This document shows positions 12,549-26,338 of a stretch of DNA of 64,000 nucleotides, in pieces. Source of the DNA: Longitalea luteola (lineage in GTDB: Bacteria > Bacteroidota > Bacteroidia > Chitinophagales > Chitinophagaceae); NCBI RefSeq assembly GCF_017356035.1, contig NZ_JAFIQX010000002.1, positions 620,001 through 684,000 of the forward strand, written 5' to 3'. How positions within the stretch are numbered: position 1 is the first letter of the stretch; each line of letters begins with the position of its first letter. Under the pieces are notes generated by a model. That model did no database searches and was not told the DNA's origin. It was given only the letters and a program-made list of their open reading frames with translations. Position numbers and translations under genes: made by a program.

Positions 12549-13766
12549 TTAAAACAACCTCAACTGCACACCCTTCGACGCCTTTCTCGTTGGTGGTTGT
12601 GCTTTGCCCATTACCGTTCTGCCGCCATAACGCCATGACTCGTTACGTTCCTTTTCAATGAGCTGCTCGAAATTATCGTTGGGGATGAAATTCTCTTCTG
12701 CTTTTTGCGCCAGTTCCGTCAATTTCTTTATAGCCTGCAGTTTATCGCTTTGGCCGATCTTCGCTTTCTGTACAGCAGTGTGTAATGTATGAATGGTTTC
12801 ATCGTATACTTTGGTGGGAACAGGGAACGGATGTCCGTCCTTACCACCATGTGCAAACGCAAACCGGGCCGGGTCTTTGAACCGGGTATTCGTTCCATGA
12901 ACGACTTCGCTTACCAGCGCCAGTGATTGCAGCGTGCGGGGCCCCATACCTTCCAGCAATAATAATTCTTCAAAATCAGCCGGACTTTTTTCATGCGTTA
13001 ACCACAACATGGCGCCCAGTCTTTTCAGGTCAACATCCTTCGCGCGCACATCGTGGTGGGCTGGTAGTACAAGTTGTTGTATTTCTGATAAGAGTTCGTT
13101 GGGCGATTCTTTGGATAAGGTCAATATGCCTGAACGGGCAGGCGCTGCTTCTTTATCGACCAGGTTGAGAATACTGGATGATTGCAAACCACAGATGGCC
13201 GTGTGCGGTTCATTGACGAATGACTGCAACTGCTGGGAGTGCCAGTGATAACGCCGCGCCGTGCCGGTGTTGTCATTCATCCCCTGTTGTATCACTGCCC
13301 ATTGTCCTTCATTACTCACAATAAAGTTATGCAGGTATAATTGAAAACCATCCTGGATGGCGGTGTTATCGACTTTGGCGCTCAGCTTGCTGGCGTGAAC
13401 CAGTTGCCGCGCATCGAGGCCGGTCTGTTCACCAATGGCCATTAACTCATTGGGCACCTGGCGGGAATGTTTGCCTTTTCCGCCACAGATATAAATACCC
13501 AGTTCTTTTGCATGCGGATTGATGGCCTTCTTTAATGCACCTAATACTGAAGTGGTAATGCCTGAAGAATGCCAGTCCATACCCATTACAGCGCCGAGGC
13601 TTTGGAACCACCAGGGGTCGCTCATTCGCCTGATCCAGTCGGCTTTTCCGTATTCCATGAGCACTACCTCCGTGATGGCCAGGCCGAGTTTGGCCATACG
13701 TTCAGCCAGCCATGGCGGAACGGCGCCATAGTGCAAAGGGAGATCAGCAGTGCCTGAGCGTTTCAT
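12549..13766 (-). CDS. DUF763 family protein with C-terminal clamp-like motif
   Basis: This 405-residue protein matches DUF763 (MKRSGTADLPLHYGAVPPWL start; YICGGKGKHSRQ; HAGKDGHPFPV). A LLLEGMGPRTLQSLALVSEVVHG stretch resembles a helix-hairpin-helix DNA-binding element. The biochemical function is unknown. The last five residues, QLRLF (401-405), match the beta-clamp-binding consensus QL[SD]LF closely, and they are preceded by a flexible basic/Pro segment. Its promoter overlaps an operator-like palindrome similar to that of umuD at 23.8 kb. I infer a DNA-repair or replication-associated role. The family call is firm and the role speculative. Confidence 0.85.
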   Translation of the reverse strand: MKRSGTADLPLHYGAVPPWLAERMAKLGLAITEVVLMEYGKADWIRRMSDPWWFQSLGAVMGMDWHSSGITTSVLGALKKAINPHAKELGIYICGGKGKHSRQVPNELMAIGEQTGLDARQLVHASKLSAKVDNTAIQDGFQLYLHNFIVSNEGQWAVIQQGMNDNTGTARRYHWHSQQLQSFVNEPHTAICGLQSSSILNLVDKEAAPARSGILTLSKESPNELLSEIQQLVLPAHHDVRAKDVDLKRLGAMLWLTHEKSPADFEELLLLEGMGPRTLQSLALVSEVVHGTNTRFKDPARFAFAHGGKDGHPFPVPTKVYDETIHTLHTAVQKAKIGQSDKLQAIKKLTELAQKAEENFIPNDNFEQLIEKERNESWRYGGRTVMGKAQPPTRKASKGVQLRLF

Positions 13767-13768
13767 AA

Positions 13769-13807
13769 TGCTAACAAAGTTAGTAAATAAAAAGGCATAA
13801 AGGCAAA
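13769..13807 (-). promoter_or_regulatory. DUF763 promoter with overlapping operator-like palindrome
   Basis: On the minus strand TTTG (13804-13807), 21 bp and TAACTTTG (13775-13782) form a full-consensus Bacteroidota promoter. The leader to the ATG at 13766 is very short. A palindrome TACTAAC-TTT-GTTAGCA (13769-13785, one mismatch) covers the -7 element, as expected for a repressor site. It has the same half-site and 3-bp gap as the perfect palindrome upstream of umuD. Confidence 0.6.
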
Positions 13808-14427
13808 AAGGGGCTTGGGGACAAGCGCAGGGGAGTGACCAGCCCGGTCACTCCTTGCCATACTTATTTTTCTATGCCTGTGGATCAGAGGGGCCTCATC
13901 TTTTTTCCGGTTTGGGTTTTCATCTGGTTACAACGACGATCACAAGGCCTGCTGGCAATCGCCTGCAACCAACAAGGATATTATGCTACCGGGGCTCCCT
14001 GGCAATGGGATCTGTTATCCCTGATCTCCTGCGCTCTGTTAATGAACAAGCTGTGGTGTTCGAACTAACGATACTCAAAACTAACAGGTAGTCTTTTATG
14101 TTATGCATCCATGTGTGTGAACTGCGGATTTATGCATGTGAAACCAAACTTTCGGGGTGGTGAAATGCAGGAGATAAAATAAACATATAATGAAGAAGAC
14201 TCTGCAACAAACATGCTCATGTAAAGATCAGTGATGCAAACAAACAATTGTAAGTAATGGGAGGGATAAACGATTTTTTGCTTTAATGATGAAACATTTA
14301 TTATTCTACCTGATAAATAGAAAAATATTACAACAACAAATTATAACGTTGCTATGTTATAACGCAACCGTTAATAGTAATTATTTACCGTTTGTGTAGA
14401 CGGTAGCAACATACTGTAACACACAAA
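13808..14427. other. Intergenic stretch without a convincing gene
   Basis: This spacer between DUF763 and the TonB receptor holds a hairpin GGAGTGACC-agccc-GGTCACTCC (13832-13854) without a clear T-tract. Short plus-strand frames at 13835-14091 have no recognisable features. An AT-rich part with TATAACGTTGC...GTTATAACGCAAC repeats lies at about 14340-14370. These could be upstream control elements of the receptor gene. Nothing else was seen. Confidence 0.5.
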
Positions 14428-14435
14428 TACTTTTG
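14428..14435 (+). promoter_or_regulatory. -7 element of the TonB receptor gene
   Basis: TACTTTTG matches TAnnTTTG perfectly and would place transcription start about 20 nt before the ATG at 14462. No good -33 TTTG is seen at the usual spacing, so an activator may be needed. Confidence 0.5.
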
Positions 14436-14461
14436 CCGACTAAACTGCAAATATTTTATTC

Positions 14462-16936
14462 ATGAAAAAGTTGATTTTGTTAGCATTGCCTATGTTGTTT
14501 TGTGCAGCTATGACCAAAGCACAACAGGTTACAGGTAATGTTAAAGATGATCAGGGAAAGGCCTTATCGGGAGCAACTGTAGCACTTAAGAAAATAAAAG
14601 ACTCAGCATTGGTGAAACTGGCTGCTACGAATACAGCAGGTCAATATTCATTTACCGGAATTACTGCGGGAACTTATTTTGTAGCTGTATCCTACACTGG
14701 TCATATTGCAAAAAATTCAAGAGCGTTTGATGTAAGTGGCACTGCTGATGTTACAGCACCGGATGTGGCGCTCACCAAAGCTGCCGGTCAGCTGAAAGAA
14801 GTGGTTGTAGCCGCCCGCAAACCCATGGTTGAAGTGAAGGCCGATAAAACCATTTTAAATGTAGAAGGAACTATTAATTCAGTAGGCCAGGATGCCCTGG
14901 AACTGTTGCGCAAAGCACCCGGCGTAGTAGTTGATAAAGACGATAACCTTACGTTAAGCGGTAAAAGCGGAGTTCAGGTATATATAGACGGGCGCCCGAC
15001 ACCGCTGACCGGAAAAGACCTGTCGGATTATCTCAAAACACTGCAGTCTTCATCCGTTGAAGCCATCGAGATCATAACCAACCCTTCAGCCAAATACGAA
15101 GCAGCCGGTAATGCCGGGATCATCAATATCAGGCTGAAAAAGAATAAGTCGTTTGGAACCAATGGCTCGGTAAATGCGGGTTACAACCAGGGTATTACAC
15201 CAAAATACAACGGCGGCATTTCATTGAACCACCGCAATAAGAATGTTAACCTGTTTGGTAATTACAGCTATAGTGACAATACCAATGAGAACAATATCAA
15301 TTTACGCCGTGAGGTTCTGGATACGTTGTTCGATCAAAGGTCAAAGTTGAATATCGACAACAGGAGCCACAATTTCAAGGCAGGTATGGATTATTTCATT
15401 AATAAGAGAAGTACAATAGGCATTATGGCCAACGGTTCTTTCTCTGACATGGACCTTAATAACTATAGCCGTACCGATATCTCTTATATGCCAACGAAAC
15501 AGCTCGACAGGATCCTGGTGGCCGATAATACAAATAAGAATATTAAGAATAACATTAATGGCAACCTGAATTACCGGTATGCCGATTCTTCCGGTCATGA
15601 GCTGAATATAGATGCAGACTATGGCGCTTACCGCAATAAAAGCGATCAGTTTCAGCCTAACTTCTACTCTGATCCGAATGATAACCCTACCTACAACCGG
15701 ATATATCACATGTATGCGCCAACAGATATAGATATATACAGCGCTAAAGTGGATTATGAACAGAATTTCAAAAAAGGACGTTTGGGCCTGGGCGGTAAAA
15801 TATCTTTTGTTGAAAGCAGCAATGATTTTGACCGGTACGATGTAGATGATATTATTTTAAGGAACGAAACACTGGATACTTCGCGTAGTAATAACTTCCT
15901 TTATAAGGAGAACATCAATGCAGGGTATATCAATTACAACAGGCAGTTCAAAGGGTTTATGATCCAGGCTGGTGTGCGGGTTGAGCATACGCATGCCACC
16001 GGCCGTTCCCAGGGGTTTGCCTGGAATGGGACTGAGTATGTTGAATACGATTCAACGTTTACCCGCGATTATACGAATGTGTTTCCAAGTGCAGCCATTA
16101 CGTTCAATAAAAACCCGATGAACCAGTTCAGCTTTACGTTCAGCCGGCGTATCGACAGGCCTAACTACCAAAACCTGAATCCTTTTGAATTCAAGCTCGA
16201 TGAGTATACTTACCAAAAAGGAAATACCGAACTAAGGCCGCAGTACACCAATAGCTTTGGTATCACCCATACCTATAAATACCGCTTGAATACTACCTTG
16301 AACTATAGCCATGTAAAAGATATCTTCTCGCAACTGGTTGATGTGACTGAAAAATCAAAATCTTTCGTCACCCAGAAAAACCTGGCAACGCAGGATATCG
16401 TGAGCCTGAATATCAGCTATCCGTTCCAGTATAAATGGTATAGCATCTTTGGTAACCTGAATGCTTACTATTCACATTACAAGGCTGATCTGGGCGTTGA
16501 CCGTAAAGTTGACCTCGATGTGTATGCCTTTACCTTCTTTGCACAACAAACCTTCCGCTTGGGCAAAGGCTGGACGGGTGAAATGAGCGGTTTTTATTCT
16601 TCTCCCTCCATCTGGCAGGGAACGATCAAGAGCAGTAAGATCTGGAGTATAGATGGTGGAATATCAAAAACTGTGTTAAAGGGCAATGGAACAGTTAAAG
16701 CATCTGTAAGCGATCTTTTCAGAACCCTGAAATGGAGAGGAACGAGCGATTTTGCCGGTCAGCATACATTGGCCAGCGGTAATTTTGAAAGCCGCCAGTT
16801 GAAACTGAACTTCACTTACCGCTTTGGTAACAGTCAGGTGAAAGCGGCCCGTCAACGCAAGACCAGCCTGGAAGAAGAAAACAAACGTGCAGCCGATGGT
16901 CAGGGTGGTGGAATAGGCGGTGGAAGTCCGAAATAA
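14462..16936 (+). CDS. TonB-dependent receptor, outer membrane beta-barrel family
   Basis: This 824-residue protein starts with a signal peptide (MKKLILLALPMLFCAAMTKA). A carboxypeptidase-regulatory-like Ig domain follows (about 22-110, VTGNVKDDQGKALSGATV), then a plug with the VVVAARKP and IEIITNPSAKYEAAGNAGIINI motifs, and an OMP_b-brl_3-type barrel rich in aromatic/Asn beta strands. It would import a TonB-energised ligand across the outer membrane. No SusD partner is adjacent, so a glycan substrate is not indicated and peptides or metal complexes are possible. The C-terminal tail after the barrel is charged and Gly-rich (GGGIGGGSPK). It is monocistronic with its own terminator. Confidence 0.9.
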   Translation: MKKLILLALPMLFCAAMTKAQQVTGNVKDDQGKALSGATVALKKIKDSALVKLAATNTAGQYSFTGITAGTYFVAVSYTGHIAKNSRAFDVSGTADVTAPDVALTKAAGQLKEVVVAARKPMVEVKADKTILNVEGTINSVGQDALELLRKAPGVVVDKDDNLTLSGKSGVQVYIDGRPTPLTGKDLSDYLKTLQSSSVEAIEIITNPSAKYEAAGNAGIINIRLKKNKSFGTNGSVNAGYNQGITPKYNGGISLNHRNKNVNLFGNYSYSDNTNENNINLRREVLDTLFDQRSKLNIDNRSHNFKAGMDYFINKRSTIGIMANGSFSDMDLNNYSRTDISYMPTKQLDRILVADNTNKNIKNNINGNLNYRYADSSGHELNIDADYGAYRNKSDQFQPNFYSDPNDNPTYNRIYHMYAPTDIDIYSAKVDYEQNFKKGRLGLGGKISFVESSNDFDRYDVDDIILRNETLDTSRSNNFLYKENINAGYINYNRQFKGFMIQAGVRVEHTHATGRSQGFAWNGTEYVEYDSTFTRDYTNVFPSAAITFNKNPMNQFSFTFSRRIDRPNYQNLNPFEFKLDEYTYQKGNTELRPQYTNSFGITHTYKYRLNTTLNYSHVKDIFSQLVDVTEKSKSFVTQKNLATQDIVSLNISYPFQYKWYSIFGNLNAYYSHYKADLGVDRKVDLDVYAFTFFAQQTFRLGKGWTGEMSGFYSSPSIWQGTIKSSKIWSIDGGISKTVLKGNGTVKASVSDLFRTLKWRGTSDFAGQHTLASGNFESRQLKLNFTYRFGNSQVKAARQRKTSLEEENKRAADGQGGGIGGGSPK

Positions 16937-16955
16937 GTGTAGCTTCAATAATAAG

Positions 16956-16988
16956 AAAATCCTTCCCACACCGGGGAGGATTTTTTTT
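16956..16988 (+). terminator. Intrinsic terminator of the TonB receptor gene
   Basis: AAAATCCTTCCC and GGGGAGGATTTT form a stem with one mismatch around an ACACC loop, followed by eight T residues. It starts 20 bp past the stop codon at 16936. Confidence 0.85.
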
Positions 16989-17039
16989 GCTTATCAATTC
17001 TTCCCTACTTTGCAGGCATTGTAAATAAAACCGTTCACT

Positions 17040-17870
17040 ATGCGTGTATTTGCAGGTTCATTGTTATTTGCACTAACAATTTCAGCATTCGTATTCAGTT
17101 GTGCGCATAATCCCTACGCCAAAACCAATAAGCTATATAAGAAGCAGGCAAAACAATATGCCAAAAACCTGCGGCCCTTTCCCAACAGACTCTATCTTGA
17201 TTCAGCCATCATGCCGGCATATGTGGCAGCTACTACCAACTTCGATCTGCGCCGGCCGAATTTTGTGATCATCCACCATACGGCCCAGAACTCCTGTGAG
17301 CAGACGCTGAAAACGTTTACACTGCAACGTACAAAGGTAAGCGCACATTATGTTATATGTAAAGATGGCACCATACATCATATGCTGAACGATTACCTGC
17401 GCGCCTGGCAGGCGGGTGTAAGCAGGTGGGGCAACTTTTCTGATATCAACAGCAGCAGCATTGGTATCGAACTGGATAATAATGGAAGCGAACCATTCCC
17501 CGAATCACAGATCACGAGTTTGATAAAGTTGTTGGATACATTGAAGAAAAGCTATTCCATTCCAACGGCCAATTTTATTGGTCATGCAGATATAGCACCC
17601 GGCAGGAAAGTAGACCCGAGCGCTTATTTTCCCTGGTATACACTGGCACAACGTGGTTTTGGGTTATGGTACGATACCACAGCAGTAGTAGTACCGGAAT
17701 ACTTTAATGCGACCCAGGCATTGCGCATCATTGGTTATAATGTTACCGATACCCTGGCGGCCATCCGCTCCTTTAAATTGCATTTTGTTCCGCAGGATAC
17801 GCTGCTGATACGGTCTTTAACCAACGATGATAGAAAGATCTTATATGACCTGTCGCGCAGGTATCAATAA
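17040..17870 (+). CDS. N-acetylmuramoyl-L-alanine amidase lipoprotein (Amidase_2)
   Basis: This 276-residue protein has a lipoprotein signal ending in FVFSC (lipidated C21). The AmpD-like amidase core has FVIIHHTAQ (H79/H80), AHYVICKDGTIHHML, and GHADIAPGRKVDP (H182, K190, D192), giving the zinc ligands and catalytic Lys/Asp region. It probably cleaves the amide between MurNAc and the stem peptide in the periplasm, in cell-wall turnover or recycling. The C-terminal 70 residues (after WYTLAQRGFGLWY) resemble the AmpD C-terminal helix bundle. Its stop directly abuts the stop of the convergent sulfatase gene, with no spacer. Confidence 0.88.
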   Translation: MRVFAGSLLFALTISAFVFSCAHNPYAKTNKLYKKQAKQYAKNLRPFPNRLYLDSAIMPAYVAATTNFDLRRPNFVIIHHTAQNSCEQTLKTFTLQRTKVSAHYVICKDGTIHHMLNDYLRAWQAGVSRWGNFSDINSSSIGIELDNNGSEPFPESQITSLIKLLDTLKKSYSIPTANFIGHADIAPGRKVDPSAYFPWYTLAQRGFGLWYDTTAVVVPEYFNATQALRIIGYNVTDTLAAIRSFKLHFVPQDTLLIRSLTNDDRKILYDLSRRYQ

Positions 17871-19415
17871 TTAATTTAATTCACCGGCCGGTTCATGATC
17901 ATCGTACTCATCCCGTAATTTTTGCAATTCTTTTTTTAACCGGTTCACCAGCGACTGGTGTTTGGCAGAACGGATCAGGTTCTTTTGTTCCCGGGGGTCT
18001 GTATGCAGGTCGTACAATTCCCATTCGTTTACTGTATAAAAATAGATCAGTTTATACCGGTCGCCTCTTATGCCCAGGTGCGGTAATACGGTATGATCCT
18101 GCGGATATTCGTAATAATGATAATATAGATAAGGGCGTTTGAGATCGGGTTTTTTACCGGTGATCACCGGTACCAGGCTTTTGCCCTGCATCGCTGCCGG
18201 GATCGGCGTTCCTGTTATATGCAGGATGGTAGGTGCAAAATCAATATTCTGCGCCAGCATAGTACTGGTAGTGGCCGGCCTGATCTGTTGGGGCCAGCGC
18301 ATCAGGAGTGGGGTTTGCATACTTACATCGTACATGAACCGTTTGTCGAACCAACCGTTTTCGCCCAGGTAAAATCCCTGGTCACTGGTGTATATAACAG
18401 CGGTGTTCTTCGTGAGGCCCGATCCATCGAGGTAATTCAGCAGCCTGCCCACATTCTCATCAATGGAAGCCACACAGGCGAGGTAGTCCTGCATATACCA
18501 TTGGTATTTCAGTTTTAACAACTCATTGCCCCGCGGGCGCAACTGTTGTAATTGTTTGCCCCGTTCGGCATAGATGGTCTTGATCCGGCTGCGGTCGGGT
18601 TCGGGTATCCGGTTCATCATAGCGTGGTAGTAGGCAATTTCTCCCTCGTCAGGCTGATTGTCTGCATCGCCCTGTAAATAAGCCGGATCAACTTTGAGGT
18701 CGCTGCATAATTTCATATTACGCAGGATACTCATGGTTTGAATATGCCAGGCGCTGCCGCGACCGGCGGTATCAGTATACAAAGTAGCAGGCTCGGGAAA
18801 TGTTTTCTTATGGTATTGCTCCAAAAATTTCAAGGATGGGTTGAAATTGCGGTGAGGCGCTTTGTAGTGTAACAATAATACAAATGGCTTGCTGTTATTG
18901 CGTTGCCTGAGCCACGTTATGGCCTCATTGGTGGTTACATCCGTCGCATAACCATTCAGGGTAATGGTATCGCCCTGCATATTAATAAAGCGTGGATCAA
19001 AATAAAGACCCTGACCAGGTAATATTTTCCAGTAATCGAAACCAGCAGGGTAAGAGTGCAAATGCCATTTACCGATCACTGCCGTTTCATAACCGGCCTG
19101 TTGTAAGATCTTGGGCATGGTCAACTGGCTGCTGTCGAACCGCGTATAATTATCTCTTACCCCGTTTTTATGGGAATGCTGTCCGGTTAGTAAGGTAGCC
19201 CGGGCCGGACTGCAAATAGAGTTACCCACAAAACAGCGGGTAAACCGGATACCTTCCTGCGCTATCCGATCCAGTGAAGGCGTTTGCAGCAGGCTTTTAT
19301 CATAAGCGCTTATTGCCTGCGCATCATGATCATCGCTCATGATATATAAGACATTGGGACGCTGGGCGAAGCCATGAAAGGACAACAGCATGCAGATCAA
19401 TGATAGTAATTTCAT
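17871..19415 (-). CDS. Secreted type I (FGly) sulfatase
   Basis: This 514-residue sulfatase has a signal peptide (cleavage after HGFA), metal-binding DD (28-29), and the active-site motif CSPAR (C68-R72) whose Cys is converted to formylglycine. GKWHLHSYPAGFDYW, YTSDQGFYLGENGWFDKR and the C-terminal WELYDLHTDPREQKN follow. It hydrolyses sulfate esters in the periplasm or outside, probably from sulfated glycans. No anaerobic maturase or polysaccharide-utilisation locus is adjacent. The substrate cannot be told. The gene is single and convergent with the amidase. Confidence 0.9.
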   Translation of the reverse strand: MKLLSLICMLLSFHGFAQRPNVLYIMSDDHDAQAISAYDKSLLQTPSLDRIAQEGIRFTRCFVGNSICSPARATLLTGQHSHKNGVRDNYTRFDSSQLTMPKILQQAGYETAVIGKWHLHSYPAGFDYWKILPGQGLYFDPRFINMQGDTITLNGYATDVTTNEAITWLRQRNNSKPFVLLLHYKAPHRNFNPSLKFLEQYHKKTFPEPATLYTDTAGRGSAWHIQTMSILRNMKLCSDLKVDPAYLQGDADNQPDEGEIAYYHAMMNRIPEPDRSRIKTIYAERGKQLQQLRPRGNELLKLKYQWYMQDYLACVASIDENVGRLLNYLDGSGLTKNTAVIYTSDQGFYLGENGWFDKRFMYDVSMQTPLLMRWPQQIRPATTSTMLAQNIDFAPTILHITGTPIPAAMQGKSLVPVITGKKPDLKRPYLYYHYYEYPQDHTVLPHLGIRGDRYKLIYFYTVNEWELYDLHTDPREQKNLIRSAKHQSLVNRLKKELQKLRDEYDDHEPAGELN

Positions 19416-19556
19416 AAGCAGCTATTTAAACAAACGCGCACCCTAATGCGGAACGCACAAATACACTATTTGCGTCAAGCGTTCGTCATTTAGCGTTTAG
19501 CGTATTCTTATGAAGTTACTACGATTGTAAGCTATAACCGGGAATTTTAAAAGGAA

Positions 19557-19769
19557 TTATTGCAGTTCCTCACAAAAATAACCCGCCCGCTGCAGGGTCG
19601 CTTCCACGGAACGTGGACTCAATTCATTGGATTCAATACGGAGGATCCTGTCTCTATCATCCAGGTCAACATTCCACTTTGCAATTCCCCGCAGGTTATT
19701 GATATGTGGTGTTACAGCGGTGATCTGCTTTTTAAATCGAAGATTGGTTTTAAAAACAAGCACTTCCAT
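19557..19769 (-). CDS. Small HMA-like domain protein
   Basis: This 70-residue protein (MEVLVFKTNLRFKKQI...) has the beta-alpha-beta-beta-alpha-beta pattern of the heavy-metal-associated domain, with NVDLDDRDRILRIES as the central strands. It lacks the CxxC metal site, so metal binding is unlikely and it may be a protein-interaction module. It is the last gene of a minus-strand operon after a membrane protein and an ECF sigma factor, with an 11-bp gap. Confidence 0.65.
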   Translation of the reverse strand: MEVLVFKTNLRFKKQITAVTPHINNLRGIAKWNVDLDDRDRILRIESNELSPRSVEATLQRAGYFCEELQ

Positions 19770-19780
19770 AACGTATAGGT

Positions 19781-20158
19781 TTACTTATTCTCATCCGGTT
19801 GTTCAGTAGCTGAGCTTCTGTCATAAAACCGGCCCCAGCCGCCGCAACGGCTCTTCCATTCGTTTTTGAACTTTTGTTTTTCTTCAGGCGTCATGTGCTC
19901 CCATTTTTCCATCATATTTTGCCGGAAGCGGTTTTTGAACTGCTCTTTCTTATGGTGAAAGCCACCAAAACCACTGAACAATATTTTTGATAATACCAGT
20001 ATTCCCAATGCCTGCCAGAAGGTAATGGTTTTTACACCCAGTACTTCGGGTAATATGGCATTCCAGATGCTCATTATTATAAAGCTGAACAACATGACAA
20101 AAGCTGTACAGAATACCAGGATCATAACAGCTTTGCCAAACCAGAATCTTCGTTTCAT
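19781..20158 (-). CDS. Hypothetical membrane protein in ECF sigma operon
   Basis: This 125-residue protein has two N-terminal hydrophobic helices (about 8-32 and 45-63). A basic, charged cytosolic tail follows (HHKKEQFKNRFRQNMMEKWEHMTPEEKQKF), with a Spy/CpxP-like M-TPEEK turn, and ends in a polar segment. I do not recognise a named family. It lies 12 bp after the sigma factor gene, so it is a candidate anti-sigma or sensor partner. That role is inference only, as no zinc-binding anti-sigma motif is seen. Confidence 0.65.
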   Translation of the reverse strand: MKRRFWFGKAVMILVFCTAFVMLFSFIIMSIWNAILPEVLGVKTITFWQALGILVLSKILFSGFGGFHHKKEQFKNRFRQNMMEKWEHMTPEEKQKFKNEWKSRCGGWGRFYDRSSATEQPDENK

Positions 20159-20170
20159 GTTACACGTTGT

Positions 20171-20752
20171 TTAATAATTTAATAATTCTTCTTTCAACGC
20201 ACTCAGCCGGCTGCGCAGGTGTAAAACTGCGTAGCGTTTGCGGCTCAGCAGCGTATTCACCGTTTCGCCGGTTTGTTCGGCAATTTCCTTAAATGGTACT
20301 CCTTCCAGTTCATTCAATATAAAAACCTGCTTTTGTTCTGCTGGTAATTCATTCAGCGCATTGTTCAATTCCTCCCAGAAAAGATTTCGCAGGTAGTCTT
20401 TTTCCGGGTTGTCGCTGGCATCGAACAAAAATTCACTCCAGTTAAGTCCGCTTTCCTCGCCTTCTTCTTCACCAAACAGGTCTTCCAGCGCCTCGGGACG
20501 TTTTTTTCGTTGCCGGTCGATGATCTTATTCCTGGCTACTGTAAACAGCCAGGCAGTCATTTGCTCAATAGGCTGCGTGTTACCAATAAACTGGTAAAAC
20601 ACATCCTGCAAGATGTCTTCTGCATCGGCCTCATTATTTACCCGTTTGCGGATAAAGCCCATGAGGCGTTTGCTATAGTCGGTAATGACCTGCGTAATAT
20701 TGCGTTTCCTGTCTGCCGTCATGCCGGGTGCTATCGTCAGCGTCTCCTTCAT
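20171..20752 (-). CDS. ECF-type RNA polymerase sigma factor
   Basis: This 193-residue sigma-70 family ECF factor has region 2 with DAEDILQDVFYQFI (about 43-56) and TAWLFTVARNKIIDRQRKKR, an acidic linker (GEEEGEESG), and region 4 with LPAEQKQVFILNELEGVPFKEIAEQTGETVNTLLSRKRYA. It heads a three-gene minus-strand operon with the small membrane protein and the HMA-like protein. It probably directs transcription of a stress or surface regulon and may be held inactive by its neighbour. Its targets are not visible here. Confidence 0.9.
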   Translation of the reverse strand: MKETLTIAPGMTADRKRNITQVITDYSKRLMGFIRKRVNNEADAEDILQDVFYQFIGNTQPIEQMTAWLFTVARNKIIDRQRKKRPEALEDLFGEEEGEESGLNWSEFLFDASDNPEKDYLRNLFWEELNNALNELPAEQKQVFILNELEGVPFKEIAEQTGETVNTLLSRKRYAVLHLRSRLSALKEELLNY

Positions 20753-20859
20753 GTATTATACCTGGGTGAGACGACCAGCGGATAGTTATATTTTAAAGAT
20801 GAAGCAAAAAGTTGAAAAGTTGATTAGTTCACAGGTTGACCAGGCAAAAAATGCTCTCA

Positions 20860-20895
20860 ACTCGTTAACTTGTAAACTGGTTAACTCGTTAACTT
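20860..20895. repeat. ACTCGTTAACTT direct repeat pair
   Basis: ACTCGTTAACTT occurs at 20860-20871 and 20884-20895, with TGTAAACTGGTT between. This GTTAAC-rich element lies directly upstream of the DUF72 gene. It may be a simple repeat or a control site. Confidence 0.5.
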
Positions 20896-20903
20896 AACTG
20901 AAT

Positions 20904-21836
20904 ATGAAGTTTGGAAAACTGCCTGAAAGTGAACTAAATACAGTAGATTTTGCTTTGCCGCCCGAGCCTCCAGGCAATCAAAAGGTATTAGGCGGGATTA
21001 AAAAAGACCCGGTAAAAATTCATATTGGCTGCCCGCTATGGGGGGTACCAGGGTGGATCGGAAAAATTTATCCCGCGAAGGCCCGGGAAAAAGATTTTCT
21101 GGCCAATTATGTACAGCATTTCAATGGCATTGAGTTGAATGCCACGCATTATAAAATATACGATGAATCCGCCATTGCCAAATGGGCTGATAAAGCCAAT
21201 GGCCGTGATTTTATATTCTGTCCCAAGCTGTTCCAGGGAGTTACCCACCAGGGCGGCCTGCGGGGTAAGGAAGGCATGCTCACGGAATTTTTGCGTGGAA
21301 TAAAAGCGTTCAAAGAACATTTAGGGCCGGTGTTCATGCAGTTGAGTGATTCATTTGGACCGAACCGTAAAGAAGAGCTGTTCAGTTTTTTAAGATCATT
21401 GCCGAAAGAGGTAACCTTTTTTCTGGAGCTGCGTCATCCTGACTGGTTTGCACAGGACGCTGTGCGCAAGGAGTTATTCAATACGTTGTATCTGCTCAAA
21501 ACAGGCGCTGTTATAACCGATACGGCTGGCAGAAGGGATTGTGCACATATGCACCTCACCATTCCCAAAGCATTCGTTCGTTTTGTGGCCAACAGCCTGC
21601 ACCCCACCGACCATCCGCGGCTGGATGCATGGATAGCCCGCATCGTAACCTGGATAGAACAGGGTTTGCAGGAACTCTATTTTTTTGTGCATATGGACGA
21701 TGAGCTGTATTCACCGGAACTGATCACTTACTTAACCGATAAGCTGAATGCCGCTTGTGGCTTACAGTTACCGCAACCGCATTTTATTGCGGCAGAAGGC
21801 CAGGCAGCCGGGTCGCAGATAACTTTTTTTGATTAA
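20904..21836 (+). CDS. DUF72 family protein with C-terminal clamp-like motif
   Basis: This 310-residue DUF72 (COG1801, YecE-like) protein has a TIM-barrel-like fold. Typical segments are IHIGCPLWGVPGWIGKIYP, FNGIELNATHYKIY, FIFCPKLFQGVTHQ, FMQLSDSFGPNR and FLELRHPDWF, with a His-containing VITDTAGRRDCAHMHL. The activity is unknown. It ends QITFF-D (305-309), a plausible beta-clamp-binding pentapeptide after a flexible AEGQAAGS linker. It precedes the convergent umuC gene and belongs to the DNA-damage-type island. The fold assignment is firm and the clamp contact is inference. Confidence 0.85.
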   Translation: MKFGKLPESELNTVDFALPPEPPGNQKVLGGIKKDPVKIHIGCPLWGVPGWIGKIYPAKAREKDFLANYVQHFNGIELNATHYKIYDESAIAKWADKANGRDFIFCPKLFQGVTHQGGLRGKEGMLTEFLRGIKAFKEHLGPVFMQLSDSFGPNRKEELFSFLRSLPKEVTFFLELRHPDWFAQDAVRKELFNTLYLLKTGAVITDTAGRRDCAHMHLTIPKAFVRFVANSLHPTDHPRLDAWIARIVTWIEQGLQELYFFVHMDDELYSPELITYLTDKLNAACGLQLPQPHFIAAEGQAAGSQITFFD

Positions 21837-21887
21837 GGTGTGCCAAACTTTCAAAGTGCGGCCACCTCGAGCCTGTTGTCTGTTGAT

Positions 21888-23171
21888 TCAGCTTACTTCG
21901 TACAATTCTTCCCAACGGGTGGTATATCGCTTGCTGCGTAACTCCTGGCGCATTTTCCAGTTACGGGCTAATCCGGAAGCCGCAAACTTCAACACGTCAT
22001 CGCGCATACTAAAATTGATATTATCCATCATATCCATCAGGAGGCGTTGGTATTTCTGCGGGCCGGGCGTAAACAGATTTCCCTGGATAGAAGCGTCGGG
22101 CTCGAGTCCGGCCAGCATAACGCCCGCCTTTTTATACACTTTTCCCTGTTCATATAAAGATTCAACCAGTTGCACCGCCGGTTTAATTAACTCCGGTGTA
22201 CTGCTGGTAGCCGCCGGCAGGGTAACATGTGAGCTAACAGTAGCGCCCCGCCTGAAGCTTACTTCATAGTTCTGTTCGCGCGGAACAATGAATACACTGA
22301 TCACTTTAGCAGCGCTATGTTGCCGGCGCAGCTTTTCGGCTGCCCTAGAAGTATAGGTGGCGATCGCTTCTTTAATATCATTGAGATCGGTAACCGGTTG
22401 ACCGAACATGCGGGTGGTGGCGATCATCTTTTTATTAACGAGCGGCTTTTCCATTTCCCGCGATGGCAGGCCATTCAATTCCCTGATCAACCGGGCGCCA
22501 ACAATTCCGCCCAGGTTGGTATAGGCCCATTCTTCGGGCATGGCGCTTAATTCCCATGCGCTGGTAATGCCGAGATCGATCAGTTTTTTTTCATACGCCC
22601 AGCCAACACCCCATACATTGTTAACCCTGGTCTGTTTCATGGCGATCACCTGTTCTTCCCGGGTAGCCAGCACTTTTACACACCGGGTGGCCTCTTTGTT
22701 TTTCTTGGCCAGGTAATTGGCCAGTTTGGCCAGTGTTTTTGTAGGCGCCACGCCGATAGATACGGATATGCCGGTCCATTGTTCAACGGTTTTACGGATG
22801 TTCATGGCTGTATCATAAAGAGCTTCCAAAGGCACATGGCCGAGGTCTATAAAAGCTTCGTCAACAGAATACACTTCTACTTTACTGGCATCGCCCAGCA
22901 AATGCCGGAGGGTTTCCATTACCCGCCAGCTCATATCGCCATATAAATTGTAGTTGGAAGAAAAAGCGGAAATGTTATGTTGCTGGATCAGCGGTTTGGC
23001 CTCAAAATAAGGTACGGCCATACCCACGCCGGCAGCTTTCGCCTCGTCGCTTCTGGAAACGATACAACCATCGTTATTGCTTAAAACCACTACTGGTTTA
23101 TGCTGCAGATCGGGCCTGAACAGCCGTTCACAGGAGCAGTAGAAACTGTTGCAATCAACAATTGCTTTCAT
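21888..23171 (-). CDS. umuC: Y-family DNA polymerase V catalytic subunit (UmuC)
   Basis: This translesion DNA polymerase has 427 residues from the ATG at 23171. A TTG six codons upstream is less likely. The palm has the metal-binding D6 (IVDCNSFYCSCERLF) and VYSVDEAFIDL (D104, E105). The steric-gate region, SIGVAPTKTLAKLANYLAKK, helix-hairpin-helix NNVWGVGWAYEKKL and little-finger domain follow. QGNLF (363-367) sits where E. coli UmuC has its clamp motif QLNLF. The gene is downstream of umuD on the same strand with a 152-bp gap containing a GC-rich hairpin. It is full length and should copy damaged DNA with low fidelity. Confidence 0.93.
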   Translation of the reverse strand: MKAIVDCNSFYCSCERLFRPDLQHKPVVVLSNNDGCIVSRSDEAKAAGVGMAVPYFEAKPLIQQHNISAFSSNYNLYGDMSWRVMETLRHLLGDASKVEVYSVDEAFIDLGHVPLEALYDTAMNIRKTVEQWTGISVSIGVAPTKTLAKLANYLAKKNKEATRCVKVLATREEQVIAMKQTRVNNVWGVGWAYEKKLIDLGITSAWELSAMPEEWAYTNLGGIVGARLIRELNGLPSREMEKPLVNKKMIATTRMFGQPVTDLNDIKEAIATYTSRAAEKLRRQHSAAKVISVFIVPREQNYEVSFRRGATVSSHVTLPAATSSTPELIKPAVQLVESLYEQGKVYKKAGVMLAGLEPDASIQGNLFTPGPQKYQRLLMDMMDNINFSMRDDVLKFAASGLARNWKMRQELRSKRYTTRWEELYEVS

Positions 23172-23224
23172 AACAAGTGTTTTTTCCAATTCTTAAAGTA
23201 CCATAGAAATGCGTTTCGGATTTG

Positions 23225-23259
23225 GAGCCCCGACTGTCCTGCCCGGGACGCCGGGGCTC
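23225..23259. repeat. GC-rich hairpin between umuD and umuC
   Basis: GAGCCCCG and CGGGGCTC form a perfect 8-bp stem around an internal GTCC...GGGAC stem. No T-tract follows on either strand. It could attenuate umuC relative to umuD, stabilise an mRNA end, or be a mobile REP-like palindrome. Confidence 0.55.
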
Positions 23260-23323
23260 AATAACAATAGGATGGCTTAATGGAATGGTTTAATCAGTTT
23301 ATGCTTGAATAACAGCGAAGTTT

Positions 23324-23758
23324 TTACAAGGAATGAATGCTGTAGGTAACAACACCCCAGATACCCAGGGAATCACAGGATGCATCTACTTCAATGGTTG
23401 CATGTTTTGGCGATTCGGCGAGTAGTCTCACTTTGTTGAAAGTTTTTTCGAGCCGCCGGATCAGCATTTCCCCATTGAGTGATGCAACTACCACCTTACC
23501 GCTTTCAGCTTTCAAGCTGCGGTCTACTATTATGGTATCACCATCATAGATACCCGCGCCCGTCATGGCATCGCCGCGGATCCGCATGAAGAATGTAGCC
23601 GGTTTATTGTGGATCAATTGTTCATTCAGATCAATGCCCCGTTCCATATAATCATCAGCCGCAGCGCCAAAGCCCGTAGCATCGGCGGTTTTAACATCCT
23701 GTTGCGAGAACTTTTTGGTTCCCCGGTACGATGTTTCATTAAAATATTCCCCCTCCAT
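23324..23758 (-). CDS. umuD: UmuD-like S24 protein lacking the catalytic Ser and Lys
   Basis: From the ATG at 23758 the product has 144 residues aligning end to end with E. coli UmuD: AADDYMERGIDLNEQLI, ATFFMRIRGDAMTGAGIYDGD, IIVDRS, GEMLIRRL and GVVTYSI. The nucleophile position of GDSM is Ala (A64, codon GCC), and the catalytic Lys97 equivalent is Arg (R101), so self-cleavage should be impossible. The cleavage-site region TG-F (28-30) is still recognisable. A longer frame to 23857 runs through the operator and is unlikely. It sits upstream of umuC and downstream of a TACTAAA palindrome. It may act as an uncleavable accessory subunit. Confidence 0.85.
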   Translation of the reverse strand: MEGEYFNETSYRGTKKFSQQDVKTADATGFGAAADDYMERGIDLNEQLIHNKPATFFMRIRGDAMTGAGIYDGDTIIVDRSLKAESGKVVVASLNGEMLIRRLEKTFNKVRLLAESPKHATIEVDASCDSLGIWGVVTYSIHSL

Positions 23759-23776
23759 ATAATTTAATTTTTGATG

Positions 23777-23806
23777 TACTAAATTATTTAGTAAATTTAT
23801 ACTAAA
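23777..23806. promoter_or_regulatory. Operator-like TACTAAA palindromes between umuD and the 2H genes
   Basis: TACTAAA-TTA-TTTAGTA (23777-23793) is a perfect palindrome with a 3-bp gap. A third half-site TACTAAA (23800-23806) forms a second inverted pair with the middle one. It lies 19 bp upstream of the umuD ATG and 26 bp upstream of the divergent 2H gene, so one regulator could control both. The same architecture overlaps the DUF763 promoter. Confidence 0.65.
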
Positions 23807-23831
23807 TTTATGATCCAATAAAAAATGTTTT

Positions 23832-24443
23832 ATGAATACCAGGTTAGCTAAAAACACGCCTTTTGACTGGAATAGCAGCAGTCACCGCGAGTACCGGTTG
23901 GTCATTTATCCCGATGCTCCTGTGTACGAAAAGATTATGGCGGAGAAACAGCGGTTCCTGACGAATTATGGTGTAGAAACGGCAAACTCCTTTCCGTATA
24001 TAAAGGTGGCGGGTTTTTATGCAGGAGAAGGTATGGAGGAAACATTGATCCGCTGGATCCAGCGGATCTGCAGTCAGTTTAGCAGTTTTGACATAACACT
24101 TAATAATTATAGCGGCTTTCCGCAACACAGCATATACCTGCGTATTCAGCATCCGCAGGCGTTACAGCAACTGGCCACCCAATTGAAAACGCTCGACGGT
24201 CATGTACAGGCCATGGCAGCGAATAGCTTTGAGCGTATCCCGAATATAGTCCTGGCCAATGAACTGCCTGAGCCGGTTTATCAGCAGGCAATGCCCGTGT
24301 ATTCCCGCAAAACATTCAGGGCCCGCTTCATGGCAACTGAACTGGTGTTATTAGGCCGTGACCATCCGTATGCTACCAGCAAAACTATAACTGTGTTCCG
24401 CTTTTTACCAGCTAACCATAAATCCTACAGCGAAGTGGCCTGA
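23832..24443 (+). CDS. 2H phosphoesterase (2'-5' RNA ligase-like) protein, degenerate
   Basis: This 203-residue protein is related to its downstream neighbour and to 2'-5' RNA ligase/2H phosphoesterases. The second motif is HSIYLRI (in GFPQHSIYLRI). At the first motif position it has PYIKVAGF where the paralogue has PHIALVRF, so one of the two catalytic His residues is Tyr. It may therefore bind rather than cleave cyclic phosphate or nucleotide ligands. It is divergent from umuD across the operator and starts a plus-strand run of 2H, 2H and radical SAM genes. It lacks the C-terminal Q-x-x-L-F motif. Confidence 0.75.
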   Translation: MNTRLAKNTPFDWNSSSHREYRLVIYPDAPVYEKIMAEKQRFLTNYGVETANSFPYIKVAGFYAGEGMEETLIRWIQRICSQFSSFDITLNNYSGFPQHSIYLRIQHPQALQQLATQLKTLDGHVQAMAANSFERIPNIVLANELPEPVYQQAMPVYSRKTFRARFMATELVLLGRDHPYATSKTITVFRFLPANHKSYSEVA

Positions 24444-24469
24444 TCATTATTCAATCCAAAAATTAAGTT

Positions 24470-25081
24470 ATGAAAATCAATATTCAGTCTATACCCGGTT
24501 GCAGGATCAACGAATACATGTTGATATTGAATCCGCATGAAGAATTGAGGAACAAGATCGCTAAAGTGAGAACTGAATTTAGTGAAAAGTATAAAAATAC
24601 GGCTGCCCTGATCAGTAAGCCGCATATTGCGCTGGTACGGTTTACGCAACTTGAAATGATGGAAGAGCGGATCATAAACCGGCTGAACGTGATAGGCATG
24701 GGATTTCAGCCATTTAAGGTATCATTAAAAGATTACGGAAGTTTTCCTTCGCATACCCTTTTCATTAATGTTACCACCAAGGTCCCTGTTAATAACCTGG
24801 TTCGAGAAATCCGCGCCGATCAACGGCTTATGAAACTGGATAATGAGCACAAGCCGCATTTTATTGATGAGCCTTATGTAGTGATCGGCCGCAAGCTATT
24901 ACCCTGGCAATATGAAAAAGGCTGGCTTGAATATTCACACCGCCAGTTTACCGGTTCTTTTATCGCCGATAATATGTTATTGCTGAAACGCCGGTTGGGC
25001 GACAGATCATGGCAAATAGCAAAACGTTTTGATTTTATGAATTTACCCGTTACGACAAAACAAGGGGAGTTATTTGTATAG
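24470..25081 (+). CDS. 2H phosphoesterase (2'-5' RNA ligase-like) protein
   Basis: This 203-residue paralogue of the preceding gene (26-bp gap) keeps both His motifs: PHIALVRF and SHTLFINV. In neither is the third position the usual Thr/Ser, so activity is uncertain. HKPHFIDEPYVVIGRKL near the C-terminus is typical of this subfamily. It ends QGELF-V (198-202), a pentapeptide like the QGNLF clamp motif of the nearby UmuC. Members of this superfamily act on 2',3'-cyclic phosphates or 2'-5' bonds. Its place between UmuD and an SPL-like enzyme suggests a role in nucleic-acid damage. Confidence 0.8.
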   Translation: MKINIQSIPGCRINEYMLILNPHEELRNKIAKVRTEFSEKYKNTAALISKPHIALVRFTQLEMMEERIINRLNVIGMGFQPFKVSLKDYGSFPSHTLFINVTTKVPVNNLVREIRADQRLMKLDNEHKPHFIDEPYVVIGRKLLPWQYEKGWLEYSHRQFTGSFIADNMLLLKRRLGDRSWQIAKRFDFMNLPVTTKQGELFV

Positions 25082-25128
25082 TCCATGCTTGAAGTGGTGT
25101 TGTTTCAGTCTTTCAAAAAAATGACCAC

Positions 25129-25155
25129 CTCCTGACCCGCATTGGCGGGCAGGAG
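25129..25155. repeat. GC-rich REP-like palindrome
   Basis: CTCCTG-a-CCCGC-attg-GCGGG-CAGGAG is a perfect 11-bp stem with one bulged base and a 4-nt loop, in the gap between the 2H gene and the radical SAM gene. No T-tract follows, so it is more likely a REP-like element or mRNA stabiliser than a terminator. Confidence 0.55.
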
Positions 25156-25228
25156 CGTCGTACGGGCATTTGAAGCGAACATCACCCGTGAAGTGAGTGT
25201 GAATATGGGTAAAAGTTAAAATACAGCA

Positions 25229-26338
25229 ATGAAAGAGATAAAACAGGACAGCTACCGGATTGCGCCGCGAAAGATGCAGGAAAATGAACAATACAAAAAA
25301 GGCCGCGGCGCCCAGCTGAATACCAGGAATCGTTTTTTGAAAGACCAGCATGTGCAGGAGCATGTGGAGGGTATCGATGACTGGTCGGAAAAGCAGGAAC
25401 CCACTCAATACATTGAACAGGAAGCCAAAACCTTGGTGAATAAAGTAACCAGTCCAGATGTAGGCATGTGGTATAGCATGAACCCCTATACAGGCTGTGA
25501 GCATGGCTGCATATATTGTTATGCCCGCAATACCCATGAGTATTGGGGTTATAGTGCAGGTCTTGATTTTGAAAGAAAGATCATTGTAAAGACCAATGCA
25601 TCGCAGTTGCTGCGTAAATTCCTGATGAATCCCAAATGGGAATGTGTTCCTATCAGTTTAAGCGGAAATACCGACTGTTATCAGCCGGCCGAACAAAAAT
25701 ACCGGTTGACCAGGTCTTTACTGGAAGTGTGCAGGGAATTTAACCAGCCGGTAGGTATTATCAGTAAAAATGGCGGCATGGTGCGGGATCTAGACGTTTT
25801 AAAAGAAATGGCCAGAAAGAAACTGGTTTCCGTACTGGTCACCATCACCTCATTGAATGAAGATCTGCGACGGGTAATGGAGCCACGAACCACTACGGCA
25901 ATGCAGCGATTGAAGCTGATCCAGGAATTGAGCCAGGAAGGTATCCCCGTGGGTGTGATGATGGGTCCCATGATACCCGGCCTCAATGAGCATGAGATGC
26001 AAAGGATCATGAAAGCGGCCAAAGAGCACGGAGCCAGATCTACTGCATATACTTTCGTCAGGCTGAACGGTTCTGTTAAGTTATTATTCCACGACTGGCT
26101 CTATAAAAATTTTCCCGACCGGGCCGATAAAGTATGGCACATGATAGAGCAAAGCCATAATGGCCAGGTGAATGATTCTCGATGGGGCGTACGTATGCGT
26201 GGCGAAGGCGATATTGCTGAGATCATAGCACAGCAATATCGCAAATACGGTAAACTATATGGCATGAACACGGAAGAGCTGGATGTGGATACCTCCAGCT
26301 TCAGACGTCCAGGTGTTCAGGGCAGGTTATTTGATTAA
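25229..26338 (+). CDS. PA0069-family radical SAM protein (spore-photoproduct-lyase-like)
   Basis: This 369-residue radical SAM enzyme has the cluster motif C-x3-C-x2-C in GCEHGCIYCYA (about 89-99), preceded by SMNPYTGC. The SPL/PA0069-type features are SLSGNTDCYQPAE, VGIISKNGG, VTITSLNEDLRRVMEPR and GPMIPGLNEHE. The family is related to spore photoproduct lyase, but its substrate is unknown to me. Photolesion or other base-damage reversal is plausible. It ends QGRLF-D (364-368), resembling a beta-clamp-binding motif. It follows the two 2H genes on the same strand and overlaps the stop of a convergent small gene by 4 bp. Confidence 0.88.
   Translation: MKEIKQDSYRIAPRKMQENEQYKKGRGAQLNTRNRFLKDQHVQEHVEGIDDWSEKQEPTQYIEQEAKTLVNKVTSPDVGMWYSMNPYTGCEHGCIYCYARNTHEYWGYSAGLDFERKIIVKTNASQLLRKFLMNPKWECVPISLSGNTDCYQPAEQKYRLTRSLLEVCREFNQPVGIISKNGGMVRDLDVLKEMARKKLVSVLVTITSLNEDLRRVMEPRTTTAMQRLKLIQELSQEGIPVGVMMGPMIPGLNEHEMQRIMKAAKEHGARSTAYTFVRLNGSVKLLFHDWLYKNFPDRADKVWHMIEQSHNGQVNDSRWGVRMRGEGDIAEIIAQQYRKYGKLYGMNTEELDVDTSSFRRPGVQGRLFD

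Follow-up and report, generated by a model that had tools for sequence, protein, structure and literature searches.

Why should four unrelated proteins, encoded near the genes of the DNA polymerase Pol V, end in much the same short peptide? The question is raised by a 64,000-nucleotide stretch of the Longitalea luteola genome (contig NZ_JAFIQX010000002.1, positions 620,001 to 684,000; hereafter the window), in which genes encoding a DUF72 protein, UmuC, UmuD, two 2H-type proteins and a radical SAM protein of the PA0069 family span 20.9-26.3 kb, and a DUF763 gene lies about 7 kb from this DUF72-to-radical SAM stretch with other genes between. A first-pass annotation had read a motif of the sliding-clamp type, Q-x-x-[LF]-F, at the C-termini of the DUF763, DUF72, second 2H and radical SAM proteins and within UmuC, and proposed that all of them are tethered to the beta-clamp (DnaN) as one DNA-damage system. 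Translation placed the five motifs where that annotation had them (Table 1). At a probability of roughly 0.78, we favor the reading that SOS-induced repair enzymes would dock independently on the beta-clamp via C-terminal linear motifs. Of the first-pass proposal, the clamp-linked role in DNA damage stands as a strong, sequence-derived prediction, supported by selection on the motif in the radical SAM and DUF763 families, by the fit of their motifs (QL[SD]LF-type or hexapeptide) to the published clamp-binding consensus and by the SOS link that places the motif-bearing genes with Pol V in a DNA-damage response; the single system does not stand.

Conservation of the tail motif

With a simple gene caller, 58 genes of at least 100 amino acids were called in the window. 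A strict pattern, Q..[LF]F.{0,2}$, matched the DUF763, DUF72, second 2H and radical SAM genes and no others (4/58), versus one of 853 background proteins, a set taken from the window and 53 Bacteroidota loci after removal of the seven cluster families. The first-pass judgement that four such matches were unlikely by chance was thus borne out, with a probability of about 8e-7 for at least four of 58, although the pattern was picked post hoc and hence this figure is a guide only. A looser pattern, Q..[LMI][FL].{0,7}$, matched 10 of the 853 background proteins and only three window genes, the QITFF of DUF72 failing. A genome-wide search at the DNA level for C-terminal motifs (284 matches versus 202 in the reversed control) mixed coding and non-coding sequence and was not used. 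Conservation within families is stronger evidence than these counts. The lone strict background match was the endonuclease V of Flavobacterium sp. NRK1 (L077:12914-13618), which ends QGELF; the gene of this repair enzyme lies about 1.7 kb from a DUF763 gene.

The PA0069 family was sampled as 70 proteins over the cut-off from 200 Pseudomonadota genomes and 63 from 148 Bacteroidota genomes, and the 133 were aligned with MAFFT. At E 0.001 the family had matches in 76 of the 200 and 67 of the 148 genomes drawn; 67 of 71 Bacteroidota match places were read, four weak ones being left out, and the distant relatives L249-L252 stand outside the 63 aligned. The first tail column is Q in 128/133 proteins, followed mostly by L, M or G, then by any residue, then by L (again 128/133), and the last column is F in 103, L in 22 and W in 3 of 130. 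The tail Q and L carry about 4 bits, a value comparable to the highest among the last 45 columns, and the preceding linker 0.7-1 bit. Hence, the tail motif of the PA0069 family is almost invariant across two phyla, behind a variable linker. Counted as patterns, Q..[LMI][FL] lay within the last 12 residues of 61/70 Pseudomonadota and 55/67 Bacteroidota proteins (the 67 including the four distant relatives, one of which matched), and Q..[LMI][FLIW] within the last 35 residues of 68/70 and 57/63 PA0069 proteins, respectively. The six Bacteroidota misses include the endings GGTLSLF, QLKLGL and QQELGL, and the distant relative L251 ends EQFDLFG. All four Actinomycetota relatives had the tail (QESLF, QLTLL, QLRLL and QEPLF) and a Gemmatimonadota copy had QLSLGI. 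Among seven other radical SAM relatives nothing alike was seen in six, and one (L320) ends EQLGF. Within the linker region, about 20 columns ahead of the clamp-type motif, a further pair is conserved, L-x4-F (L in 110/133, F in 126/133).

Of 32 Bacteroidota DUF763 proteins, counted without L095 (split and cut) and L311 (the same gene as L092), 31 carried the C-terminal motif. The other two families were patchy. DUF72 tails (30 top-ranked loci in a set of 65 Bacteroidota genomes) included 10 pentapeptides and 8 hexapeptides (QGDLGL, for instance), together 18/30, against backgrounds of 12/853 and 6/853 for the two patterns; the motif was in 5/5 Niastella-group proteins and in 8/30 from Pseudomonadota (30 of 46 places). 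The 2H motif was found in 7/27 genomes, the 27 being the complete loci of 28 best-per-genome ones. As a positive control, the MutS proteins of relatives had QLSIF in 13/13. UmuC had an internal QGNLF or QANMF in all seven relatives read. A further radical SAM family, TIGR03916, gave 15 pentapeptide and 10 hexapeptide tails, of the QLxLF or QLxLPGL type, among 29 proteins, the last four ending QLTLW or QLV[LI]PGIFS (30 of 40 over-cut-off genomes were read and L436, which is cut, was excluded); it had no match in the host genome. TIGR03916 is a second SOS-linked, uracil-DNA glycosylase (UDG)-linked radical SAM family with a clamp-type tail. Across orthologues, the motif is under selection in PA0069 and in Bacteroidota DUF763, and it is not kept throughout DUF72 and 2H or in DUF763 from elsewhere.

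SOS boxes and gene order

The umuD/2H and DUF763 upstream regions have a 17-bp palindrome in common. In the entire 7.3-Mb genome TRCTAAMNNNKTTAGYA is matched perfectly just twice, once before DUF763 and once between umuD and 2H. Among 356 loci, perfect sites occurred only before DUF763, in umuD/2H promoters, before a 2H-radical SAM pair (L199) or before a radical SAM gene (L205). The palindrome stands at a like position before DUF763 in Niastella, Longitalea and some Pedobacter, and the umuD/2H box is also kept in relatives. Its form, CTAA-N5-TTAG, is that of an SOS box with gel-shift evidence for which Chitinophagaceae are named (PMC8565304; what we take from this source, PMC11139829 and PMC11791011 refers to the portions covered).

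A relaxed operator, TRCTAA-N5-TTAGYA, gave six sites in the host genome versus one in the reversed control. The six precede DUF763, umuD/2H, genes for an S24 protein and a DnaE-type polymerase, an ImuA-like gene whose product falls short of its model's cut-off, and a gene for a 72-residue DUF3072 protein (L382:3043-3258), in which the box stands 2 bases ahead of the start. Relaxed-site neighbors in five other genomes included genes for XRE-S24 repressors and Y-family polymerases, for a nuclease of the DnaQ/GIY-YIG kind and an Fpg/Nei-like protein, for radical SAM proteins of the PA0069 and TIGR03916 families (the latter with a box before it in G002) and for UvrA (by N-terminus reading only), and also genes unrelated to repair. 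An XRE-S24 repressor with its own box was assigned by Pfam in G007 and G080 and by N-terminus reading in G002.

Promoter counts used 300-mers as controls and, for DUF763, further excluded L089 and L094. The CTAA-N5-TTAG box was found in 9/31 Bacteroidota DUF763 promoters (control 5/1212) and in the own promoters of 6/63 Bacteroidota radical SAM genes (control 17/2044); the window radical SAM gene has no SOS box of its own. Pseudomonadota radical SAM promoters contained GTTC-N7-GTTC in 39/70 (control 14/2279) and CTGT-N8-ACAG in 18/70 (control 0/2279), such that 57/70 had a LexA-type box of either form. No LexA-type box preceded DUF763 in 14 Pseudomonadota loci. DUF72 was rejected as an SOS gene, the box being in 0/30 promoters (control 13/1002), and GGA-N5-TCC, tried as an additional box, showed no excess.

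UmuC, UmuD, 2H and radical SAM genes are together in three further Chitinophagaceae genera (L196-L198), and the 2H-radical SAM pair is kept in a fourth (L199). Of 20 stretches of 20 kb surrounding a Bacteroidota radical SAM gene, 16 contained no homologue of UmuC, UmuD or 2H at E 1e-5, and one (L199) had a 2H gene only. As 16/20 stretches lack these neighbors, the motif does not depend on the cluster. It persists in dispersed radical SAM genes of both Pseudomonadota and Bacteroidota, contrary to the first-pass expectation that it would be kept only where the genes cluster. Outside Niastella and Longitalea, none of the other six genes was within the fetched stretch at any DUF763 locus. Shared regulation is thus a better link among these genes than position. 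In Niastella yeongjuensis (L065:3238-3562) no UmuC was located in the interval from umuD to DUF72, its position in the other Niastella loci.

Proposed docking on the clamp and competing explanations

In the mechanism that we propose, DNA damage would lift a Bacteroidetes LexA-like (XRE-S24) repressor, presumably present in the host, from the CTAA-N5-TTAG boxes. DUF763, UmuDC and 2H would then be made, probably together with the downstream radical SAM protein if its gene is co-transcribed. UmuC (internally) and the radical SAM, DUF763 and second 2H proteins (C-terminally, behind a variable linker) would present a beta-clamp-binding linear motif, and each carrier would bind DnaN in the groove that polymerases and MutS also use. 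Lesion-processing enzymes would thereby be gathered at the fork or gap alongside Pol V, where the radical SAM protein, SplB-like by superfamily only, may reverse or modify lesions. DUF72, with its clamp-type tail and no SOS box, would be at most a separate clamp client.

The Q and the final hydrophobic pair weigh most in the clamp motif, and known clients include C-terminal motifs, some with a trailing Asp: Pol II QLGLF, Pol IV QLVLGL and Pol III alpha QVELEFD (PMC11139829). The tails described here share with these clients the penta- or hexapeptide, its frequent place at a flexible C-terminus and at times the trailing Asp, and the QGDLGL of DUF72 is comparable to the Pol IV hexapeptide. The difference is that the known clients are polymerases with measured binding, whereas the putative clients here are radical SAM, DUF763, 2H and DUF72 proteins.

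Several results weigh against independent docking by an SOS-induced set. Three of the motifs have Gly at position 2, which weakens binding without abolishing it (PMC11139829) and would lower affinity here. None of 16 DUF763 proteins from outside Bacteroidota (rhizobia, other Pseudomonadota, a Dehalococcoidia bin and a haloarchaeon) has the motif; the DUF763 tail looks like a Bacteroidota addition. The shares of Bacteroidota DUF763 and radical SAM promoters with a box, given above, are low. Over six genomes the relaxed operator gave 37 sites versus 21 in the reversed control, such that many of the non-host sites may be chance. The open reading frame (ORF) after imuA, presumed to encode ImuB, contains no Q..[LMI][FL]. 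Finally, the second 2H gene and the radical SAM gene are 147 bp apart, and their co-transcription is not certain.

A conserved tail need not bind the clamp. It could instead bind a different protein (UmuD, RecA, SSB or a protease adaptor) or act as a hydrophobic degron, as the carriers are SOS-induced, rapid degradation is common among SOS proteins, and the motif lies at the C-terminus or a few residues from it in most copies (at the exact end in 33/57 Bacteroidota and 53/68 Pseudomonadota motif-bearing PA0069 proteins). However, some PA0069 copies have the motif 10-24 residues before the end, UmuC and MutS of this lineage have it internally, and the Q and its spacing fit the clamp consensus, including the rarer QLxLGL and QLxLPGL hexapeptides and tolerated substitutions (PMC11139829). 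We consider such a partner or degron unlikely, at about one chance in eight.

The single clamp-tethered machine of Pol V, radical SAM, 2H, DUF763 and DUF72 proteins put forward in the first-pass annotation fares worse still, and we regard it as improbable. The linkage of UmuC, UmuD, 2H and radical SAM genes in three other genera and the common SOS boxes speak for it, but the families are mostly found apart, DUF763 in particular outside Niastella and Longitalea. Moreover, DUF72 is not SOS-regulated and its motif, like that of 2H, is patchy, the DUF763 tail is specific to Bacteroidota, and all motifs would compete for one groove. Chance matches or relics of shared ancestry, which a short motif chosen post hoc and the weak QITFF match of DUF72 might suggest, are very improbable given the 1/853 background, and for the radical SAM and DUF763 families they are refuted by conservation (128/133 and 31/32) beside variable linkers. 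A phage-defense reading was dropped: PADLOC returned nothing and PHROGs gave only families of unknown function and a 'DNA repair photolyase' match to the radical SAM protein (E 1.3e-9).

Independent docking can be extended to a wider programme, which we put forward tentatively, at somewhat under even odds. Radical SAM and other uncharacterised enzymes would be SOS-induced and loaded on the clamp by C-terminal hooks, there to reverse or excise lesions in competition with translesion polymerases, and DUF763 would have acquired the hook, and in certain lineages also the SOS box, inside the Bacteroidota. On the same tentative footing, candidate members are PA0069/Rv2578c, the UDG-linked TIGR03916, Bacteroidota DUF763, some DUF72 and some endonuclease V proteins.

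Parts of such a programme resemble known systems. The Bacteroidetes SOS regulon under a non-canonical LexA has the same box in the same lineage, and its reported members include splB (COG1533), umuDC, imuA-imuB-dnaE2 and the UDG pair COG1573-COG4277; the main text mentions neither DUF763, DUF72 nor the word clamp (PMC8565304). Spore photoproduct lyase (SplB) shares the radical SAM superfamily with the window protein, and SOS-linked relatives go by the name SplB in published work. Unlike SplB, the window protein belongs to the PA0069 family and matched no spore photoproduct lyase model among NCBIfam at E 0.001. In PolB2 mutasomes, too, an accessory protein of a damage polymerase has a clamp motif, and DUF72 genes, encoding TIM barrels structurally akin to UV-damage endonuclease, are enriched nearby; the polymerase is another one, and the portions covered give no radical SAM or DUF763 part (PMC11791011). 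An open-access search, with subscription papers outside its scope, found no paper that joins the beta-clamp and radical SAM (or sliding clamp, radical SAM and SOS regulon), and for DUF763 only a domain census in the portions covered. For PA0069 and Rv2578c, the titles and abstracts of the papers found gave no function.

PA0069-type radical SAM genes are common and SOS-regulated, and a near-invariant hook would indicate where their products act. If true, clamp clients would extend to radical SAM repair chemistry and DUF763 would gain its first functional handle.

Other features of the window and of DUF763

Table 1 Coordinates of the features discussed, in window positions
Feature	Position	Strand	Evidence or remark
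DUF763 protein, 405 aa	12549..13766	-	PF05559, 458.7 bits; gathering cut-off 35.5
DUF763 C-terminal motif QLRLF	12552..12566	-	Translation; very end of protein
SOS box CTAA-N5-TTAG, 17-bp palindrome	13769..13785	.	2 bases before DUF763 ATG
DUF72 (YecE-type) protein, 310 aa	20904..21836	+	PF01904, 149.3 bits; cut-off 25.3; without SOS box
DUF72 C-terminal motif QITFF, then D	21816..21830	+	Translation
UmuC, Pol V catalytic subunit	21888..23189	-	IMS, IMS_C and DUF4113 domains
UmuC internal motif QGNLF	22071..22085	-	Translation
UmuD, S24 peptidase	23324..23758	-	PF00717 and NF007621 above cut-off; translation
SOS box CTAA-N5-TTAG, divergent umuD/2H promoter	23777..23793	.	18 bases before umuD, 38 before first 2H gene
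First 2H-type protein, 203 aa	23832..24443	+	PF13563, 38.9 bits; cut-off 27; without clamp motif
Second 2H-type protein, 203 aa	24470..25081	+	PF13563, 35.9 bits; cut-off 27
Second 2H C-terminal motif QGELF, then V	25061..25075	+	Translation
PA0069-family radical SAM protein, 369 aa	25229..26338	+	NF033668, 477.2 bits; curated cut-off 360
Radical SAM C-terminal motif QGRLF, then D	26318..26332	+	Translation

The CxxxCxxC cluster-binding motif was read in the window radical SAM protein. UmuC scored 360.8 bits against the NCBIfam UmuC model, under that model's cut-off of 431, and its QGNLF occupies residues 363-367 if numbering begins at codon 7 (ATG) of an ORF that opens with TTG. UmuD more probably starts at the ATG at 23758 than at the listed GTG at 23857, which lies upstream of the SOS box. 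Catalytic 2H phosphoesterases have two H-x-[ST]-x motifs. As read, the motifs of the second 2H protein are HIAL and HTLF, and the first protein is without the first His and shows HSIY; because neither has the canonical pair, both copies may have an accessory role. A G+C-rich inverted repeat without a T run lies at 25100-25150, between the second 2H and radical SAM genes, and may affect their co-transcription. Sigma-70 promoter and terminator scans did no better than shuffles.

Relaxed boxes also stand 11 and 5 bases before genes encoding 934- and 945-residue proteins in two genomes (L401 and L406), with alike N-termini and not obviously of repair. In G033 (L385, L386, L388 and L389) boxes lie beside short, repeated, alike genes, one near a resolvase-like ORF, perhaps as parts of a mobile element.

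The AlphaFold2 model of DUF763 (34 sequences) was poor, with a mean predicted local distance difference test (pLDDT) score of 59.1 and values below 50 in the tail (376-405); it had no PDB match under E 0.001 by Foldseek, and a profile search gave no PDB relative. Neither DUF763 nor the radical SAM protein had relatives on viral contigs. A sub-threshold Pfam match to the helix-hairpin-helix was seen in 13/34 DUF763 members, through which DUF763 may bind DNA. The L. luteola protein is 96% identical to its Longitalea arenae counterpart. Plasmid matches were covered for selected records. On a Rhodopseudomonas plasmid (L191:7387-9257), alkB is followed by DUF763 with a one-base overlap, a further link of DUF763 to repair.

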